From Arenibacter latericius DSM 15913 (GTDB taxonomy: Bacteria > Bacteroidota > Bacteroidia > Flavobacteriales > Flavobacteriaceae), in NCBI RefSeq assembly GCF_000424985.1, contig NZ_KE384286.1:1-64000 (forward strand): a stretch of DNA of 64,000 nucleotides, given 5' to 3'. Position numbers and translations under genes: made by a program. The notes beneath the pieces are model-generated. The model was not told the origin of the DNA and searched no databases. It was given only the letters and a program-made list of their open reading frames with translations. Position 1 is the first letter of the stretch. Each line of letters begins with the position of its first letter. This document shows, piece after piece, positions 9,923 to 37,135 of this stretch.

Positions 9923-10648
9923 CTATAATTGACTAACGCTTCCCGAGCTATATTTTTTACTTTCTACTTTCGGATTTCCCGTATACTTAATATCCGCTCC
10001 GCTACTTGCCTCCGCGTAAATAGATTCGGTGACATTTATAGAAATGTTGGCGCCGCTACTCGCATTGGCCCTACAAACTGCCGTAGTAAGATTGGAGGCT
10101 TTAATTTCTGAACCACTACTGGCATTACTATTAAAGGTATTAGATTGACCTGCAATTGCAATGTTTGCACCACTACTAGTATTTGCACTTATTTTGTCGG
10201 CATTTAGATCATCTATGTTCAGACTAGATCCACTACTAGCATTTAATTCTAAAGCTTCTGTCTTAATAGTGCTAATAGCTATAAGTTCTGCACCGCTAGA
10301 AGTTTTTAAGACGGTAATGTTTGGCAATGTTACGTACACGTTTTTAGTTGCTCTTCCAATGTTTTCAACAGTATGGATGCGTAAGATCCCATTTTTTAAA
10401 TCGGTAGCAATCAAGTCTATTATGTTTTCATCTCCTTCTACTAAAATATCATAATTAGTGCCTTGGGAAACATAGACGTCTAAGCCTTCTGAAGCAGATA
10501 TGGCAGAGAATTCACCTTCTATTGCTCGTTTATCCTTCTGTATATTTCCGTTTCCTTTTTCTCCTTGTCCGATATTGATATCGAATCCGCAGGATGAAAA
10601 AAGAAGGGTAAGGATCAGTGTAATCGTTATTCTTGCTAAGGTTGTCAT
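9923..10648 (-). CDS. Head-GIN domain lipoprotein (DUF2807)
   Basis: Predicted lipoprotein of 241 residues: the signal segment ends LLFSSC, a lipobox with Cys20. The mature part is a DUF2807 right-handed beta-helix in which the motif S-S-G-[AS] recurs about every 16-20 residues (SSGAEL, SSGSSL, SSGANI, SSGSEI, SSGANI, SSGADI). Such proteins are abundant in Bacteroidetes and are thought to act in the envelope, but no biochemical role is established. It lies downstream of the PspC and PadR genes in the same direction, a recurring association in the phylum, 145 bases after the PspC gene. Confidence 0.85.
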   Translation of the reverse strand: MTTLARITITLILTLLFSSCGFDINIGQGEKGNGNIQKDKRAIEGEFSAISASEGLDVYVSQGTNYDILVEGDENIIDLIATDLKNGILRIHTVENIGRATKNVYVTLPNITVLKTSSGAELIAISTIKTEALELNASSGSSLNIDDLNADKISANTSSGANIAIAGQSNTFNSNASSGSEIKASNLTTAVCRANASSGANISINVTESIYAEASSGADIKYTGNPKVESKKYSSGSVSQL

Positions 10649-10793
10649 GATGGTGGTAGTTGTGACCCAGTAGTGCTTATTTAAAGCAAAGGACCTGAGT
10701 CTGATTAACTGAATTTATTTAATGTTCTACTGCTTAAAATTATAATTATATAGAAAATGATATACCAATTAATTACCCAATTGTAGGTTACTG

Positions 10794-12551
10794 CTACTGA
10801 ACTGTATCTACCTCTTCCTTATTAGATTTGTTTTCCCCTGTTTTTATCTGTACCCCTTGTTTTCCTATCTTCACCTTAAAAGAATCTTCCCCATCTTTTA
10901 TGTCGATATCTAAGCCATCCTCATTGATGATTACTTTGTTCTTTCCGTCCGATTCCTTTATCGTTCTATTATTTTCTGGGCAATCTTGACATTCCAATAC
11001 GCCATTTTTACCCATAACCCAAAGATGCTCTGTTATTTCACATCCATTTAGACCTTGGTCATTATCCGTTCTTAACATCCAACAATGCTTGGGAAAGTTT
11101 TCAAATTTCACCTGGGCTCCTAGGGGTAATAAAAGGTTTGCTCTAATCTGCTGGTCCCTATACTTGTTATCTTTTGCAGTGGTTAAGAAATCATCCAAGA
11201 TAAGGGTGTTATCTTGCAGGGTATAAGAATAATTTATCTTTCCAGCTGTTTCCGTAGCGTCCCTCAAAGAGCTTCCATTCGCTTCTTTTCGTAGCTCTAT
11301 ATGTGCAAGGGAATCTTTGGAACTTTTAATATAAAATCTAATATCATCGAATATTAAAACTTCCTCACCATCTTCAGTGTAATCCAAAATCACCCCGTTA
11401 AATCCAAAATTATTATTCTGTTCCTGCCAGTTAGAAGATCTTAAGCTGACCGTGATAAGTTGGTTAGGTTCTTCCAAGGGTAAGACTTTTTCAAATGTAA
11501 CATTTCCAGAATATGCATGGGCAGCTGCTTGACTTATTCCAAATACAATTAATAGGATAATAGAGATTAACCAAAGCCCTAATAAACTAAACTTGGCAAT
11601 GTTTCCAATAGATTTTAGATTGTTCACTAATATTTTTAAACCTAGGTACATTAAAAAGAAAAAAGGAATACCAATTGCGAAGAATACAAAGAGGGAAATC
11701 AACCACACTGGGATATCGGTACCGTTTACCATATAGTAATATTCCATACCTGGGATATGGATTAGGTCTAAAATCCCCACTGTGAAGAGTCCAACAATAA
11801 GAGAAACGATTCCCGCTGCTCCTGCGATGATCATAATAATGCCTATAAATTTTCCTATAATTTTAAAAAGGAACATAATGATATCGGCAATGGAGTTGAA
11901 AATACTTTTGCTCCCATTCTTTACGCGGTTACCTACTTTCTCATAGTCAACATTTTTCACCTTTTCAGCTACGTCATCAAACCCTTCCTTGACTTTTTTT
12001 TCAATATTACTGATATTGATGGTTTCACCTTTCATATCTAGTTTCTGCGCAGTAGTAACGGCTTCTGGAGTCAATATCCATAATAGTACATATATAAAGA
12101 TAAAGCCACCCCAAGTGAATATGGTTAATAAGACCCATAAGCATCGTACCCATAACGCATCTATTCTAAAATAATGTCCCAATCCGGAGGATACCCCACC
12201 AATATATTTGTTTTCTATATCCCTATATAACTTTCTTACACTACTAGATTTAGGGGTAGATTTTGGTTGGTCCTCAAATATATCCTCATCTACCATATAA
12301 TCTTCGGGCTGTCCCATGATACTAATTACCTCGTCTACTTCTTTTTGGGTAATTACCTGGCGTTCATTTTCCATTTTCTCATGGAATAATTCAGCGATTC
12401 TGGCTTCTATATCTGCAATAATTTCATCACTACCGTTGGTATTGGCGAAGGAGCGTTTTATGGCCTCTAAATAATGTTTTAATTTAGAATAGGCTTCTTC
12501 ATCTATATGAAAGAATAAATTGGCCAGATTTATATTTATTGTCTTGTTCAT
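10794..12551 (-). CDS. PspC-domain membrane protein
   Basis: Envelope stress-type integral membrane protein of 585 residues. The N-terminal ~100 residues are soluble and helical. The PspC domain lies near 110-168 (KLYRDIENKYIGGV, then a two-part membrane segment with WVLLTIFTWGGFIFIYVLLW). Three or four further membrane helices follow between about 230 and 350, then a soluble C-terminal domain that ends in a charged region rich in beta strands. It is translated directly after the PadR regulator with one base between stop and start, so the two genes are coupled. Function in phage-shock or envelope homeostasis is inferred from the domain. Confidence 0.9.
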   Translation of the reverse strand: MNKTININLANLFFHIDEEAYSKLKHYLEAIKRSFANTNGSDEIIADIEARIAELFHEKMENERQVITQKEVDEVISIMGQPEDYMVDEDIFEDQPKSTPKSSSVRKLYRDIENKYIGGVSSGLGHYFRIDALWVRCLWVLLTIFTWGGFIFIYVLLWILTPEAVTTAQKLDMKGETINISNIEKKVKEGFDDVAEKVKNVDYEKVGNRVKNGSKSIFNSIADIIMFLFKIIGKFIGIIMIIAGAAGIVSLIVGLFTVGILDLIHIPGMEYYYMVNGTDIPVWLISLFVFFAIGIPFFFLMYLGLKILVNNLKSIGNIAKFSLLGLWLISIILLIVFGISQAAAHAYSGNVTFEKVLPLEEPNQLITVSLRSSNWQEQNNNFGFNGVILDYTEDGEEVLIFDDIRFYIKSSKDSLAHIELRKEANGSSLRDATETAGKINYSYTLQDNTLILDDFLTTAKDNKYRDQQIRANLLLPLGAQVKFENFPKHCWMLRTDNDQGLNGCEITEHLWVMGKNGVLECQDCPENNRTIKESDGKNKVIINEDGLDIDIKDGEDSFKVKIGKQGVQIKTGENKSNKEEVDTVQ

Positions 12552-31363: not shown

Positions 31364-32544
31364 ATAATATGTAAAATAAGTGGTAAAGGTACGGGATTAG
31401 TTTGGATTAAGGGTTTATTATTTAAATAGTGGTCTTAGCAAAACGTTACCCATCCATTGCTGCAGATGTAATTCGACCTAAATAATTAGCCTCCTCTCCT
31501 TATAAAATTTGGTCATAAATTATAAGATACGTTAGTTTTTACTCACTATTTGTGGTGACCCTACATTTATACTTGAATTATTTTGGTATTGGCGATTTCT
31601 ATAGTATTTGTGATGCTTTGTATGTGAGGCTGACTTACTTTTTTTAGGTTTAAAAGACGGAGATATAGCTTTAACTCTTACAGTGTGAGTTGCGTTAATA
31701 TCCTATTCCTACACTTATTTCCTAAATATTCTTTATTTCGTTTGAAACCCTACTCAGTGTGGTTATAAAGAATCTAGTAGAGTAGAGGAAGTTTTGATAT
31801 TGAAAGGTATGCTAAGTTTTATATGGATTTCCTATCTCAATTTCTGTTGTACTTTAACCAAAAGGGGTGGACTATCTCCCTTTGGGTAAATGACGACAGT
31901 AGTAGGTTGTTTAGATGTTCCACACCCTTTAAAAACTAAATTTTATCCTCCCTGTAATACACTACATAAAATTGATTCTATTCTTTAATTCGTGCTAGCA
32001 AGGTTTTTATAAAAAATATTCGATTGCGTTATTTTTTTTGGGGATAAAGCGCTAAAATTAAATTTTAACACGTAATTTTACACTTCATAAGTAAGAAAAA
32101 ATAAGTTTGAATTGAATTTGTTTTTTGACTTTTAAAGAGGACGTAGGGGTGCGTCCTCTTTTTTATTTTACACACATGCCTTTAATTACTGCAAATCTTT
32201 AGTTTTCCTGTTTCTATTATCCTTTGATAATATTATGACTGATTTTCAGTATGATTATTTGGCCTTCTACAGTTCATCCTTCATAACTTACAATTGAGTG
32301 TAACTTAATTTTATCTCTTGTGGATTTGGATAATCTTTGTGCTAGAATCTATAAATAGAAGATAATCAGAACAATGAGATTTCAAAATCAGCCTAATATC
32401 TCCAGAAATAACATTATGTCAATTATAGGGTCATCTAATTTCACTCCCTCCTTGGAACTTTTCACTAACTTTAATCGTGAACCTTCTTCTTGTTTCAGGA
32501 AAACAATGAAATCAAACGAAACCAGTTTTTGAACAAATCAATAA
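31364..32544. other. Large gene-free interval (1.2 kb)
   Basis: No reading frame of convincing length or composition occurs on either strand between the helicase and the LytS-like kinase gene. The only clear structure is the orphan terminator at 32134-32161. AT-rich sequence elsewhere shows no inverted repeat or tandem array of note. A short protein-like 36-codon open stretch on the minus strand (31835-31942) lacks a start codon and is not called. The interval may hold a small RNA and the promoter of the kinase operon. Confidence 0.5.
32134..32161 (+). terminator. Orphan intrinsic terminator
   Basis: Perfect 10-bp stem AAAGAGGACG (32134-32143) and CGTCCTCTTT (32152-32161), 8-base loop, followed by a T-run. 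No gene ends in front of it on the plus strand, so it is a candidate 3' end of an untranslated transcript. Confidence 0.8.
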
Positions 32545-33888
32545 GTGAATATGAATCGTTTTTTAAAGCATTTAGGCAACGCCATATTTATTGGGACCTT
32601 AATTTATTTTGTTTTCCTAGCCATCTTCTTTTTTATGGGCAGGTTTGATGAGGGATTTAGTTATGATCGTGCTTTACAAGAGTATTATAGAAATATGATA
32701 TACTCCCTTATCCTCTATATGGTAAATGCTTATTGGATGCAATATCTTATTGTTAAGCATAAAAAACATATCCTAGCTAAAAGACCAATGTTGGTTGGGA
32801 TAACAGGAAATATTATACTATCTCTTATAGGGATATTTATCTCCAGATTTATTCTTAAGGTAGGATTAGACAACATGGCATTGTCCGATTTTCTACGAGG
32901 GGAAAGACTAGAGTATTATAAGGTTTCTATGCTCATAGCGATTATAATATCTATTATTTTTTATGTGGCTTGGCACTTTAAGTACAAACAAGAAAATAAA
33001 GTAAAAGAGCAAAAGATCATTGCCGGAACAGCATCTGCCAAATTTGATGCACTAAAGAATCAATTGGATCCGCATTTCTTGTTTAATAGTTTAAATGTGC
33101 TTACCAGTTTAATAGAGGAGGATCCAGTACAAGCTCAAAAATTTACCACTTCACTTTCTAAGGTTTATCGGTATGTTTTAGAACAGAAAAATAAAGATCT
33201 TGTAACTGTAGATGAGGAGCTGAGTTTTGCTAAGACCTATATTAAGTTGCTGAGAATGAGGTTCGAGAATAGTATTGTCTTGGATATCCCAGCAGAAAGC
33301 AGTAATCCTGAGGCTAAAATAGTGCCCTTATCCTTGCAACTATTACTAGAAAATGCGGTAAAACACAATGTGGTTACCGCTTCCCGGCCATTAAAGATTA
33401 GGGTGTATGAAGAAGGGGGAATGCTATGTGTAAGTAATAATTATCAGGAAAAGCGGATGGTTAAAAAAAGTAGTGGGGTAGGACTTAAGAATATCCAACA
33501 GCGGTATCAAATACTGTCTAAAAGAGAAGTTGAAATTGTAAAATCGGATTCAGAATTTACCGTGAGACTGCCATTACTGACTGAAATATTAAACAATTTT
33601 GAGACGCAAGAGCTCATTATAGAGGATAAGCGATATAAAAAAGCTAAGGAACGGGTAGAGGCCCTAAAAAGTTTTTACGGCAATTTAGGAGCCTATATAG
33701 TGGTAATACCAATTCTGGCGGTATTAAATTATAATACTACATCTTTTCCTTGGGCAATCTTTCCTGCCTTGGGTTGGGGATTTGGTGTGGTTATGCACGG
33801 GTTAGATGCTTATGGTCGCGCCCCTATTTTAGGTAAGGGATGGGAAGAACGTACCATGCGTAAATTAATGGAGGATGACGACTTTTAA
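32545..33888 (+). CDS. LytS-like histidine kinase with C-terminal 2TM domain
   Basis: Membrane histidine kinase of 447 residues. Four predicted membrane helices occur at about 13-31, 52-70, 82-101 and 127-145, followed by a LytS/YehU-type histidine kinase domain with the phospho-acceptor LDPHFLFNSLNVL (His177), FAKTYIKLLRMRFENS, and an ATPase region with LLENAVKHNVVTA. Unusually, residues about 350-447 form a 2TM domain (KKAKERVEALKSFYG, two helices, then GKGWEERTMRKLMEDD) identical in layout to the three separate 2TM proteins that follow. Transcribed first in a five-gene operon ending in a LytTR regulator. The input signal is unknown. Confidence 0.9.
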   Translation: MNMNRFLKHLGNAIFIGTLIYFVFLAIFFFMGRFDEGFSYDRALQEYYRNMIYSLILYMVNAYWMQYLIVKHKKHILAKRPMLVGITGNIILSLIGIFISRFILKVGLDNMALSDFLRGERLEYYKVSMLIAIIISIIFYVAWHFKYKQENKVKEQKIIAGTASAKFDALKNQLDPHFLFNSLNVLTSLIEEDPVQAQKFTTSLSKVYRYVLEQKNKDLVTVDEELSFAKTYIKLLRMRFENSIVLDIPAESSNPEAKIVPLSLQLLLENAVKHNVVTASRPLKIRVYEEGGMLCVSNNYQEKRMVKKSSGVGLKNIQQRYQILSKREVEIVKSDSEFTVRLPLLTEILNNFETQELIIEDKRYKKAKERVEALKSFYGNLGAYIVVIPILAVLNYNTTSFPWAIFPALGWGFGVVMHGLDAYGRAPILGKGWEERTMRKLMEDDDF

Positions 33889-34064
33889 AAGTATGTTCTA
33901 AGGTTAAACTAAGCAGATGTTGGAGGTGGGGTAATTATAAATTTATGTTCCTTCTAAATTAAATTTTGTGCTTACAGTTCAACATAACTTTTCTACAGTT
34001 GAGTCTAATAGATTTAGACATTTACGCTCTTCTAACGAAATTTGAGACATCAAAAATAATACTC

Positions 34065-34367
34065 ATGGAAAATTCAGGAAAAGAGAGTAAGTACTTTAGG
34101 GCTAAGGCAAGAGTTGCCGAAATTAAGAAATTTTATAATAGTTTGTTTTCTTCCCTCTTTACTATTGCTCTAGTAGCTGGTATAAACTACTACGTTAATG
34201 AATGGCGTTACCCGTGGTTTTTATGGGTTGTCCTTGGCTTAGGTATTAGCTTGGTTTTTAAGGGCTTTAAGGTTTTTGGGTATAATTCATTGTTTGGTAA
34301 AAATTGGGAACAACGAAAGATTAAAGAGTTTTTAGAGCAAGAGGAGCAAAATGAACGGTGGAAATAA
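34065..34367 (+). CDS. 2TM domain protein (first)
   Basis: Small membrane protein of 100 residues from the ATG at 34065; the upstream extension to 33966 reads poorly. It has the 2TM layout: a basic N-terminal segment AKARVAEIKKFYNSL, a first helix (about 28-45), a short loop with an aromatic Trp/Tyr/Pro cluster, a second helix (about 52-70) and the ending NSLFGKNWEQRKIKEFLEQE. The function of 2TM (PF13239) domains is not known. It lies 176 bases after the kinase and precedes two related 2TM genes, pointing to a multi-subunit or paralogous membrane component of the signalling operon. Confidence 0.85.
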   Translation: MENSGKESKYFRAKARVAEIKKFYNSLFSSLFTIALVAGINYYVNEWRYPWFLWVVLGLGISLVFKGFKVFGYNSLFGKNWEQRKIKEFLEQEEQNERWK

Positions 34368-34393
34368 ATCTTGTATATGTAAAGGATTAAGAA

Positions 34394-34723
34394 ATGGAGA
34401 ATTATGACGTTAATAAGAAGAAAAGAGCTAAAAGGAGAATAGAGGAGTTAAAAGGTTTTTATGTTCATCTGGTCATATTTGTTGTGATTAACCTATCTAT
34501 TTCCATTAATAAGATACTAAGGAATATACAAGACGGAGAAACCTTCTGGGATGCTTTTTGGGACTTCGGGACTTTTGCGGTTTGGATATTTTGGGGAGTA
34601 GGGCTAATTTTTCATGCCTCTAAAACCTTTAATTATAATCCTTTTTTTTCCAAAGAATGGGAAGAGAAACAAATAAAGAAATTTATGGAGGAGGATAGAA
34701 AAGAATCAGAAAAATATAGGTGA
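34394..34723 (+). CDS. 2TM domain protein (second)
   Basis: Membrane protein of 109 residues, paralogue of the preceding and following genes. It has AKRRIEELKGFYVHLVIFVV with helix 1, a longer loop (NKILRNIQDGETFWDAF), helix 2 with AVWIFWGVGLIFHA, and the ending SKEWEEKQIKKFMEED. The ending block W-E-x-[RK]-x-[IM]-[KR]-[KE] is shared with the kinase C-terminus. Its stop overlaps the start of the third 2TM gene in an ATGA junction, so the two are translationally coupled. Confidence 0.88.
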   Translation: MENYDVNKKKRAKRRIEELKGFYVHLVIFVVINLSISINKILRNIQDGETFWDAFWDFGTFAVWIFWGVGLIFHASKTFNYNPFFSKEWEEKQIKKFMEEDRKESEKYR

Positions 34724-35049
34724 TGCAAGAGAATAGAAAGAATGGTCTAAAATTGGAAAGGGCCAGAAAACATGTGGCTGCGGTTAAGGGATTTTATAAT
34801 CACCTTTTTGTATACTTGTTTGTTAATTTAGGCATATTCTTTTTGTATGCCGGCTATAGGTTTATAAATACGGGATACTATGAAACCTTGGAAGTAGGGT
34901 TTAGGAATTGGATAGATTGGAATATTTTATTCACACCTTTATTTTGGGGGATAGGGCTATTCTTTCATGGTCTTAGCGTTTTTGGAAGGAAACCAAGATT
35001 TTTAAAGAAATGGGAAGTACGGCAAATTAAAAAGTACATGGAAGAGTAG
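34720..35049 (+). CDS. 2TM domain protein (third)
   Basis: Membrane protein of 109 residues with the same plan: ARKHVAAVKGFYNHLFVYLF, helix 1, a loop with tyrosines (YRFINTGYYETLEV), helix 2 (ILFTPLFWGIGLFFHGLSVF) and the C-terminal RKPRFLKKWEVRQIKKYMEE. Its start overlaps the stop of the second 2TM gene by 4 bases. The LytTR regulator begins 49 bases downstream. The presence of three consecutive paralogues next to a kinase that carries the same domain is noteworthy; function unknown. Confidence 0.88.
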   Translation: MMQENRKNGLKLERARKHVAAVKGFYNHLFVYLFVNLGIFFLYAGYRFINTGYYETLEVGFRNWIDWNILFTPLFWGIGLFFHGLSVFGRKPRFLKKWEVRQIKKYMEE

Positions 35050-35098
35050 CGAGGCAAGTCCTATTCTAAAAACAATAAACAATCTATTTCACCAACTA

Positions 35099-35854
35099 AT
35101 GAATGTAATTATAATAGAGGACGAAAAACCAGCTGCTAGACGGTTGGGACGCTTATTAAACCAATTAGAAGTTTCTGTAGCTACCATGCTCCATTCTGTA
35201 GAAGAGGCTATAATATGGTTTCAAAACAACGAACATCCCGATCTTATCTTTTTGGATATTCAACTTTCAGATGGACTCTCTTTTGAAATCTTTGAGGTGG
35301 TTAAAATAGAAAGCTCTGTGATTTTTACTACTGCTTTTGACGAGTATGCCTTGCAGGCATTTAAGTTAAATAGTATTGATTATTTATTGAAACCTATAGA
35401 TGAAGAAGAGTTAGAAATAGCAGTTAAAAAATACCAATCTTTTGGTCCTAAAAAGCAAGAGGTTTCTATGGATTTTGAGGATGTAAAAAAGTTACTATTA
35501 AACCCCTTGGAACGAGAGTATAAAAAACGATTTACAGTGAGGGTGGGGCAGCATCTAAAAATTATAAATGCGGATCTAATAGAATGTTTTTACAGTGAAA
35601 ATAAAGGTACTTATGCAGCTACTAATGATGGTAGAAATTACCTGTTAGATGTCTCATTAGAAAATTTAGAAAAGGATCTCGATCCTGAAACATTCTATAG
35701 AGTAAGTAGAAAATTCTATGTCAACATAAATCATATAAAAGATATTATATCTTATACAAATTCTAGGTTGCAGATTAAGCTAAATAGGTATAATGATCAA
35801 GAAATAATAGTAAGTAGAGAGCGGGTGAAAGATTTTAAGCTTTGGTTGGAGTAA
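35099..35854 (+). CDS. LytTR-family response regulator
   Basis: Response regulator of 251 residues that closes the 2TM operon. The receiver contains IIEDEKPAARRL, the phospho-acceptor Asp in IFLDIQLSDG, the Thr pair in VIFTTAFDEYAL, and the lysine in DYLLKPID. The LytTR DNA-binding domain (about 140-250) includes GQHLKIINADLIECFY and FYRVSRKFYVNINHI. It pairs with the LytS-like kinase 1.2 kb upstream in the same transcript. Targets are unknown; autoregulation of the operon is possible. The intergenic region after it has no clear terminator. Confidence 0.92.
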   Translation: MNVIIIEDEKPAARRLGRLLNQLEVSVATMLHSVEEAIIWFQNNEHPDLIFLDIQLSDGLSFEIFEVVKIESSVIFTTAFDEYALQAFKLNSIDYLLKPIDEEELEIAVKKYQSFGPKKQEVSMDFEDVKKLLLNPLEREYKKRFTVRVGQHLKIINADLIECFYSENKGTYAATNDGRNYLLDVSLENLEKDLDPETFYRVSRKFYVNINHIKDIISYTNSRLQIKLNRYNDQEIIVSRERVKDFKLWLE

Positions 35855-35950: not shown

Positions 35951-37135
35951 TTAGTCCACCCTATTCTCATCAAATGCTGAGGGTAGCAATTTAGGAATTA
36001 ATTTTATAAATATAGGTAATAATACAGCTCCTCCAGGAAGAATAAAAATAGCCAAGGAAGGAATACTTTTAAAAATATCCAGTAATTGGTCTTGTACTTT
36101 TTTCTTTTCTTCTTCAGTTAAATCTTTTACTGTAGACTTGGATAAGAGGGTGACCAACTCCTTACTTTCAGAGATTTCTTTTTGTAGCCTTTTACTATTT
36201 CTTAAGATTAATTTATCTACAATTCTAGCCATACTTTCATAGAATTGAACGGCCATATTTTGATCCTTTAAATGAGGGATTTTTTTAGCGTTTATTTCAA
36301 AGAATTCAGTTACATCAAATAGTGATTTTCCGATATGGGTTTTGCTAAACCCCATGTCCTCTCCGAGCTCGAAAATAAACTTCGATTCGGTATACGCTAG
36401 CGATTGATCTTCCCAAACTGTTAAGCAAGCAACATCTAAAAAGTACTGCTTTTCACAAGTGGTGAATAGGTCTAATAAATCATTCCTATACGTACTGTCG
36501 ATATGACTTTCTTCACTGTCGATAAAAGTTAATGAAGAGGCAAATAGCTGTGCTAACTTTTCGTCATTTCTACTTTTTGTTTTTGAATTTAAGGTATGGT
36601 AGGTAATATTGATTGTGATATGCTCTAATCGTTGTGCAATTTTCCTTTTGTTCTTTACACCTTCTAAATGTCGCTTAAAGGTAAGTACGTCTATAAATAG
36701 AAGCGAGTTGGTAATAGTGCTATTAAAGGTCTTGCTAATTAAATTATCCTCTAAATAGATCCTAGAGTTGATGAGCGACTCTAATTTAGCGGAGGTCTTT
36801 CTGCCCATTAACAATTTATTGATAAAGGAGATTTTTGCAATATCTAATCCTTGGTAAAACTTAAGTAGACATTTTACAAAAACCTCAAAATCTGAATTGC
36901 CAGTAGTGAATTTATGAGTGTAATATAAGCCTGCGAGTAGATTAATCTTTGCCATTTCATCCTCAGATAAAGGATGTTCAATCGCTATAAAGTCGGGCAC
37001 ATTTAGATTGATGCCATAAACAAAACCAGTTTTCTTCAGTTTTGTGTACATGGTGTTAAATGAGGAACAGTACTTATTGTCATTCTTAACCAGATATCCA
37101 AATTTATCTATCCAACCAGAGGCCGATGGGTTCAT
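35951..37135 (-). CDS. LETM1-like / biofilm-associated membrane protein
   Basis: Protein of 394 residues, mostly helical and soluble, ending with a LETM1-type C-terminal segment: KVQDQLLDIFKSIPSLAIFI, then LPGGAVLLPIFIKLIPKLLP and SAFDENR. This ending is strikingly like the LETM1 region of mitochondrial cation exchangers. Similar proteins occur in flavobacteria and have been annotated as LETM1-related biofilm-associated; I am recalling that annotation and have not verified a function. The N-terminal domain (about 1-300) has no other family I recognise. Transcribed alone, oriented away from the broken gene at 37344-37607. Confidence 0.75.
   Translation of the reverse strand: MNPSASGWIDKFGYLVKNDNKYCSSFNTMYTKLKKTGFVYGINLNVPDFIAIEHPLSEDEMAKINLLAGLYYTHKFTTGNSDFEVFVKCLLKFYQGLDIAKISFINKLLMGRKTSAKLESLINSRIYLEDNLISKTFNSTITNSLLFIDVLTFKRHLEGVKNKRKIAQRLEHITINITYHTLNSKTKSRNDEKLAQLFASSLTFIDSEESHIDSTYRNDLLDLFTTCEKQYFLDVACLTVWEDQSLAYTESKFIFELGEDMGFSKTHIGKSLFDVTEFFEINAKKIPHLKDQNMAVQFYESMARIVDKLILRNSKRLQKEISESKELVTLLSKSTVKDLTEEEKKKVQDQLLDIFKSIPSLAIFILPGGAVLLPIFIKLIPKLLPSAFDENRVD

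Follow-up and report, generated by a model that had tools for sequence, protein, structure and literature searches.

The first 64,000 nucleotides of contig NZ_KE384286.1 from Arenibacter latericius DSM 15913 (GCF_000424985.1; Flavobacteriaceae), hereafter the window, contain a two-component module in which a histidine kinase ending in a 2TM domain is followed by three small 2TM genes and a LytTR response regulator. All positions given for it are those of the window, and the genes are the following:

32551-33888, plus strand: membrane histidine kinase (Pfam His_kinase PF06580, E 5.9e-25; C-terminal 2TM PF13239, E 1.3e-24)
34065-34367, plus strand: S1, small 2TM protein (PF13239, E 5.2e-22)
34394-34723, plus strand: S2, small 2TM protein (PF13239, E 4.8e-23)
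34720/34723-35049, plus strand: S3, small 2TM protein overlapping the end of S2 (PF13239, E 3.6e-21)
35099-35854, plus strand: response regulator with receiver (REC) and LytTR domains (LytTR, E 1.6e-20; Response_reg, E 4.4e-14)

This gene order had been proposed in a preliminary description made from the sequence alone, and the Pfam matches bear it out. Two of its details need correction. The kinase had been called LytS-like, and we found no match to 5TM-5TMR_LYT, the sensor domain that defines LytS proper, at E<=1 in Pfam; the protein is therefore not a LytS orthologue by domain, though it belongs to the His_kinase (PF06580) family. The supposed ATGA coupling of S2 and S3 reads GTGATG instead, so that S3 starts either at GTG 34720 or at ATG 34723, the latter overlapping the S2 stop codon by one base. 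The listed open reading frame (ORF) of the kinase begins at GTG 32545 and its first ATG is 32551; the 2TM domain covers approximately residues 363-441 counted from this ATG, or residues 365-443 of the GTG-start product. In 52 aligned kinases the H and N boxes (DPHFLFNSLN and LQxxLEN) are invariant. The AlphaFold model (pLDDT 84.6, pTM 0.55) has long N-terminal helices, a kinase core and a C-terminal helical hairpin, and its best PDB match is, as expected, a kinase domain, that of GanS (6swk, E 2.1e-8). S3 is predicted as a helical hairpin plus one further helix (pLDDT 83.0, pTM 0.66); no PDB match with E<=0.001 was found for the model, and the sequence-profile matches were weak (best E 0.21). 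The four 2TM domains score 75.5 to 86.4 bits, with a PF13239 cut-off of 24.8, and the A. latericius genome (4.48 Mb) contains five 2TM matches, four in the module and the fifth elsewhere. To our knowledge, no function is assigned to PF13239. There is no Pfam match to PspA, PspC or LiaF among the five module proteins.

The module is widespread in the family. In a sample of 120 Flavobacteriaceae genomes with a single genome for each genus, 110 contain at least one 2TM match and 99 at least two. We fetched 79 further module regions from the best-scoring matches of this sample, which is not a random draw, and all 80 genus-level loci (window included) have a 2TM-tailed kinase and at least one small 2TM gene. 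The number of small copies varies: 24 loci have one, 26 have two, 20 have three, 8 have four, and single loci have six and seven. As to the co-occurrence of 2TM genes with the kinase/LytTR pair, a check suggested in the preliminary description, 76 of the 80 loci have a regulator match in the region. The other four (L063, L086, L049 and L113) lack this match despite having the kinase, the 2TM genes and the regulatory boxes described below; their regulator may lie elsewhere.

A second set, the best 80 matches among named loci, includes Flavobacterium, Polaribacter, Tenacibaculum, Chryseobacterium, Kaistella, Cloacibacterium, Mariniflexile, Christiangramia and some entries titled only Flavobacteriaceae. 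The tailed kinase is found in 79 of these and a regulator match in 76; three of the exceptions (L162, L165 and L201) are cut by contig ends and one (L203) is not. In a sample of 148 genomes of the phylum, a 2TM domain in a frame of kinase length (442-480 amino acids) occurs in 14 of the 15 listed genomes of the family, A. latericius included, and in both genomes listed for a second family within this order. None of the 14 2TM-bearing genomes outside the order has a 2TM frame longer than 222 amino acids. Ten further loci from this sample have the tailed kinase, which brings the collected loci to 169, of which 168 are distinct (L127 and L163 are the same); most have 1-7 small 2TM genes and an adjacent LytTR gene. 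Since the arrangement recurs in 168 distinct loci, chance is excluded for it. Among family genomes with at most one 2TM match, 12 were checked, and none was found to have a full-length tailed kinase. Outside the order, in a different family of the class, locus L139 has a stand-alone 2TM gene immediately adjacent to a REC-LytTR gene and a PF06580 kinase that lacks the domain.

A conserved regulatory site accompanies these genes. It is a direct repeat, TACARTTCATC-N10-KACARTTSRGT, formed by two 11-mers with a period of exactly 21. The matrix was trained iteratively only on the gaps between kinase and small 2TM genes, in the 34 loci where more than 60 base pairs (bp) separate the kinase from the first small gene; the repeat was found in 28 of these gaps, always with period 21. 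On both strands of the 169 loci, period 21 gives 293 matches and 14 other periods give 2-15 each; under a stricter threshold the numbers are 269 and 0-4. A site is present in 167 of the 169 loci; counting only the 168 distinct loci, there are 291 matches, again versus 2-15 per other period, and 166 loci with a site. Within 600 bp downstream lies a TPR-like gene for 86 sites, a TonB receptor for 84, DUF2141 for 51, the first small 2TM gene for 32, the kinase for 24 and the second small 2TM gene for 5. Most sites precede TPR-like, TonB receptor, DUF2141 and kinase genes, all of them outside the matrix training. TAnnTTTG is the -7 element of Bacteroidetes, and 233 of the 269 strong sites are followed by a -7-like NAnnTTTG at an offset of exactly 32 bp. 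Positions 9-11 after the 269 strong sites hold a conserved T triplet. A generic sigma-70 scan returned 8 promoter-like sites versus a shuffle mean of 20, fewer than expected by chance, and was discarded as unsuited to this phylum. In the window the sites, their predicted promoters and one further predicted regulon member are:

32268-32299, plus strand: LytTR-type direct repeat before the kinase (30.7 bits, outside the training set, exact pattern match), with AATCTTTG 32 bp downstream
32332-32339, plus strand: -7-like element (NAnnTTTG) of the predicted kinase promoter, at the same offset as in the 233 strong sites
33973-34004, plus strand: LytTR-type direct repeat before the small 2TM genes (27.6 bits, region in the training set, exact pattern match)
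34037-34044, plus strand: -7-like element GAAATTTG of the predicted small-2TM promoter, 32 bp after the repeat
10775-10806, minus strand: third LytTR-type direct repeat, before the DUF2807 gene and overlapping the pspC end (30.1 bits, outside the training set, exact pattern match)
9923-10648, minus strand: DUF2807 (Toastrack) protein, predicted regulon member (PF10988, E 4.1e-44), with a lipoprotein-like start by eye

Downstream of the third repeat, again by 32 bp, lies TAATTTTA, which is one base off NAnnTTTG. LytTR binding sites have been described as two imperfect repeats about 12 bp apart (PMC4064291) and as 9-bp repeats, for the most part 12 bp apart and often located 10 bp upstream of the -35 element, in systems with a membrane inhibitor in the operon (PMC6193735). 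The box agrees with this layout, with its two repeats at period 21 and the -7-like element at the fixed offset of 32. Separate promoters and unrelated regulation of the 2TM genes had been named in the preliminary description as what would speak against a single unit. For the small 2TM genes a promoter separate from that of the kinase is indeed predicted. Both promoters have the direct repeat, however, and the predicted regulation is therefore common to the two.

The exact pattern has only three matches in the A. latericius genome, all in the window, before the kinase, S1 and DUF2807 genes, and the reversed control has one. Allowing one mismatch adds nine (12 in total), while the control gives five, so these additional matches are largely background. 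Across 80 family genomes the pattern has 129 exact matches and its reverse has 7. The exact matches are associated with the module: they occur in 57 of the 64 genomes that contain at least two 2TM matches and in 3 of the 16 with fewer (Fisher p 1e-7). From exact matches outside the fetched regions we chose 40 further regions, where 46 sites precede DUF2141 (15), DUF2807 (11), TPR-like (5), TonB receptor (4), kinase (1) and other genes (9), or no ORF (1); some of these sites are the module itself in genomes whose module had not been fetched, for example the kinase of L296. Two of the nine sites before other genes precede a small gene located before DUF2807. In one genome (G042), near-identical repeats (L302:1796 and 3577) were observed before two genes that look secreted or lipoprotein-like by eye and are outside the recurrent target groups. 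The association was also approached from the target, with the DUF2807 protein of the window as query in 41 genomes. Within the best 30 loci, window included, a site lies at most 300 bp upstream in 17 (again counting the window) and at about -625 in 2 more, and other periods gave at most 1.

The DUF2807 gene of the window is located behind a PadR gene and a PspC-LiaF-Toastrack gene (pspC, 10794-12551), where a HAAS match is below the cut-off. Toastrack unifies DUF2807, DUF2154 and DUF4097 and is a frequent partner of PspC/LiaF in envelope-stress systems (PMC11237479), and a DUF2807 protein of Porphyromonas gingivalis is reported to be an adhesin with effects on biofilm and virulence (PMC10949514). 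The best DUF2141 gene of A. latericius has no box, and one TPR-like protein used as query had no match in this genome, a weak result from a single search with no positive control. This lineage may therefore have a reduced regulon. In 81 fetched regions (80 with the module), protein clustering placed a TPR-like protein in 57, a TonB receptor in 36 and DUF2141 in 21. The TPR-like gene almost invariably stands directly before the kinase gene, with a median gap of 21 bp (120 loci). Another conserved neighbour, a LETM1-related biofilm-associated protein, is found in 55 of the 81, almost always downstream and on the opposite strand, with no box listed for the gene; in the window it adjoins the module at 35951-37135, minus strand (NF040639, E 6.7e-153).

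In a tree of 312 2TM domains, the deeper nodes are weakly supported and the three small proteins of the window fall in three different groups. S1 groups with kinase tails and with small genes that mostly stand first in their locus (support 0.91). The group of S2 consists of middle (14 of 22) and last (8 of 22) genes (support 0.94), and that of S3 is made up for the most part of last genes (33 of 44; support 0.92). Judging from these groups, the small paralogues are old and ordered. The kinship of S1 with kinase tails led us to consider gene conversion or recent duplication as the origin of the first small gene; this was rejected, as similarity to the kinase of the same locus is not raised. A separate 2TM subfamily is associated with dihydrofolate reductase (DHFR) in all seven family loci examined, the own genome included (L115:7065-7999, equal to G000:C1:162064-162998; L133, L134 and L135-L138; two checked by Pfam). 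The two are fused in 2 loci and directly adjacent in 5, with a 1-base overlap or 12 bp apart. This 2TM domain may tether DHFR to the membrane.

We suggest that the module is a two-component system that regulates its own genes together with a small envelope regulon, and that its small 2TM proteins are co-regulated membrane partners and probably feedback subunits of the kinase. As a whole we hold this proposal to be somewhat more likely than not. The kinase would be anchored in the membrane by its N-terminal helices and by the C-terminal 2TM hairpin, would respond to an envelope-related signal, and would pass phosphate to the LytTR regulator, as is established for both families. The regulator is predicted to bind the two repeats at their 21-bp period, a fixed distance upstream of the promoter, acting more plausibly as activator than as repressor. 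It would activate its own kinase gene, the small 2TM genes with the regulator gene behind them, and a small envelope set comprising, family-wide, the TonB receptor, the TPR-like protein, DUF2141 and DUF2807; in A. latericius, the only envelope target predicted by exact match is the DUF2807 gene beside the PadR/PspC cluster. That the regulon is autoregulated is the firmest part of the proposal, and we hold it to be very likely. The small 2TM proteins, kin of the kinase tail, would be produced while the system is active and would most probably associate with this tail, setting the activity of the kinase. For such an action on the kinase we see an even chance. The feedback would more likely be damping, a preference based on the analogy with the membrane inhibitors of LytTR Regulatory Systems and with LiaF; positive feedback or a pure effector role may apply instead. 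The preliminary idea that all these genes form one functional unit is thus partly supported, by their conservation, by the separate-gene form elsewhere and, above all, by the common predicted regulation. The boxes, the predicted regulon and its connection to the envelope were not part of that description.

Several results weigh against this proposal. The contact between the small proteins and the kinase C-terminus suggested in the preliminary description was approached indirectly, through sequence similarity, with a negative outcome: the small 2TM proteins are not closer to the kinase tail of their own locus, which is the best match for only 3 of 65 first genes, and the similarity of the window S1 to its own kinase tail ranks 88th of 90. 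Outside the order, the context of the 2TM gene was examined in 4 of the 14 genomes that have one, and a kinase/LytTR neighbour is present in 1 of these 4. On the side of the regulon, the exact pattern is missing from 7 of the 64 genomes that have several 2TM matches, and 11 of the best 30 DUF2807 loci have no site. A strong box of 26.2 bits also lies upstream of DUF2807 (L321) in a genome, G005, where we found no tailed kinase; a different LytTR regulator may read it there, and the box may more generally be shared with other regulators of the LytTR type. The shuffle control for the matrix is approximate (more than 12 bits in 0.15%), and the TPR-like label corresponds to a match below the Pfam cut-off.

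The strongest alternative is that the small 2TM proteins are effectors rather than partners of the kinase: once induced, they would stabilise the membrane or anchor other proteins, as LiaI or PspB do, and the kinase tail would be only an anchor or sensor. Their genes are predicted members of the regulon just like the envelope genes, their copy number of 1-7 is what effectors would show, and the negative result of the own-kinase similarity test is in line with this idea. So is the DHFR-linked subfamily, fused or adjacent in all seven loci examined, which suggests that a 2TM domain may act as a tether in a setting without kinases. Still, the kinase holds the same domain, an unfused 2TM gene stands beside a kinase outside the order (L139), and the ordered tree groups of the small genes suggest specific roles; we consider the effector explanation unlikely, although it comes nearest to the feedback proposal. 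Slightly less probable is a switch for ligand or nutrient uptake, in which the kinase responds to a compound that is taken up or sensed through the TonB receptor and the TPR-like protein. Most boxes do lie at TonB receptor (84) and TPR-like (86) genes, both of them common neighbours. Nevertheless, A. latericius keeps the switch and the DUF2807 site with an unboxed best DUF2141 gene and without a TPR-like match (the weak single search above; no TonB receptor search was made there). That the 2TM genes merely adjoin the kinase by chance or lineage clustering, with unrelated regulation, could draw on the four genus-level loci without a regulator match in the region, but is contradicted by the 168 distinct loci, the common box, its fixed period and the fixed promoter distance, and is highly improbable.

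Compared with known systems, the module resembles the LytTR Regulatory Systems (LRS) HdrRM and BrsRM of Streptococcus mutans in having a LytTR regulator and a membrane protein in one operon with autoregulation (PMC6193735). The minimum there is a regulator with a membrane inhibitor (PMC6193735), to which our module adds a histidine kinase and a receiver domain; because of these it falls outside LRS, which are defined outside the two-component scheme. Unlike in LRS, its membrane proteins are 2TM proteins related to the kinase tail, and inhibition by them is suggested by analogy only. The LRS-like operons of Bacteroides also differ, with an NfeD/DUF2154 membrane protein, a LytTR protein bearing transmembrane segments, and 11-bp repeats 11 bp apart (PMC6193735). 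LytS and AlgZ types have a PF06580-type kinase and are grouped here with AgrC/AgrA. The systems LytS/LytR, AgrC/AgrA and AlgZ/AlgR share with the module a LytTR response regulator and a direct-repeat site (PMC4064291); the module is distinguished from them by the missing 5TMR_LYT match, a kinase tethered also at its C-terminus, and several small paralogues of this tether in the operon. In the Lia system, the membrane protein LiaF inhibits the kinase LiaS by feedback (PMC11237479), which resembles what we propose here. A link to Lia, PspC and Toastrack is given by the DUF2807 target beside the PadR and PspC-LiaF-Toastrack genes, through a predicted binding site only, while kinase and regulator families are different and LiaF, PspA and PspC are absent from the module. 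Toastrack is predicted to be intracellular (PMC11237479), in contrast to the lipoprotein-like start of the DUF2807 protein in the window.

In Flavobacterium johnsoniae coevolved with Burkholderia thailandensis, all five lines were mutated in either FJOH_RS09515 (LytTR) or FJOH_RS09520 (kinase) (PMC10197871). We considered whether this pair is the present module, and it probably is not: the consecutive tags would leave no space for a 2TM gene between them, and the pair would lie at about 2.2 Mb (an estimate from gene numbering), while the module of the Flavobacterium genome G395 is near 5.93 Mb. No entry titled F. johnsoniae is among the best 80 named loci.

Among the papers covered by a literature search made mostly without subscription journals, we found no description of the module or of its regulon. 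The system itself is of a known kind, a His_kinase/LytTR two-component system, and its novelty consists of the self-like membrane subunits and of the direct repeat common to the small 2TM, kinase, TonB receptor, TPR-like, DUF2141 and DUF2807 genes. More tentatively, and with somewhat less than even confidence, we propose that it represents a class of two-component systems present in most Flavobacteriaceae genera sampled and in Chryseobacterium-like genera, where the kinase is retuned by 1-7 self-like 2TM subunits induced by its own regulator, and the same box drives a compact envelope regulon. The 2TM domain gains with it a testable setting, with promoters, a regulator, a regulon and a kinase partner, all of them predicted, across many genera of a major marine and freshwater family. 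Several poorly understood envelope proteins are placed under one predicted control. If it is true that the small proteins tune the kinase, the module would be a simple natural design for feedback in membrane sensing.

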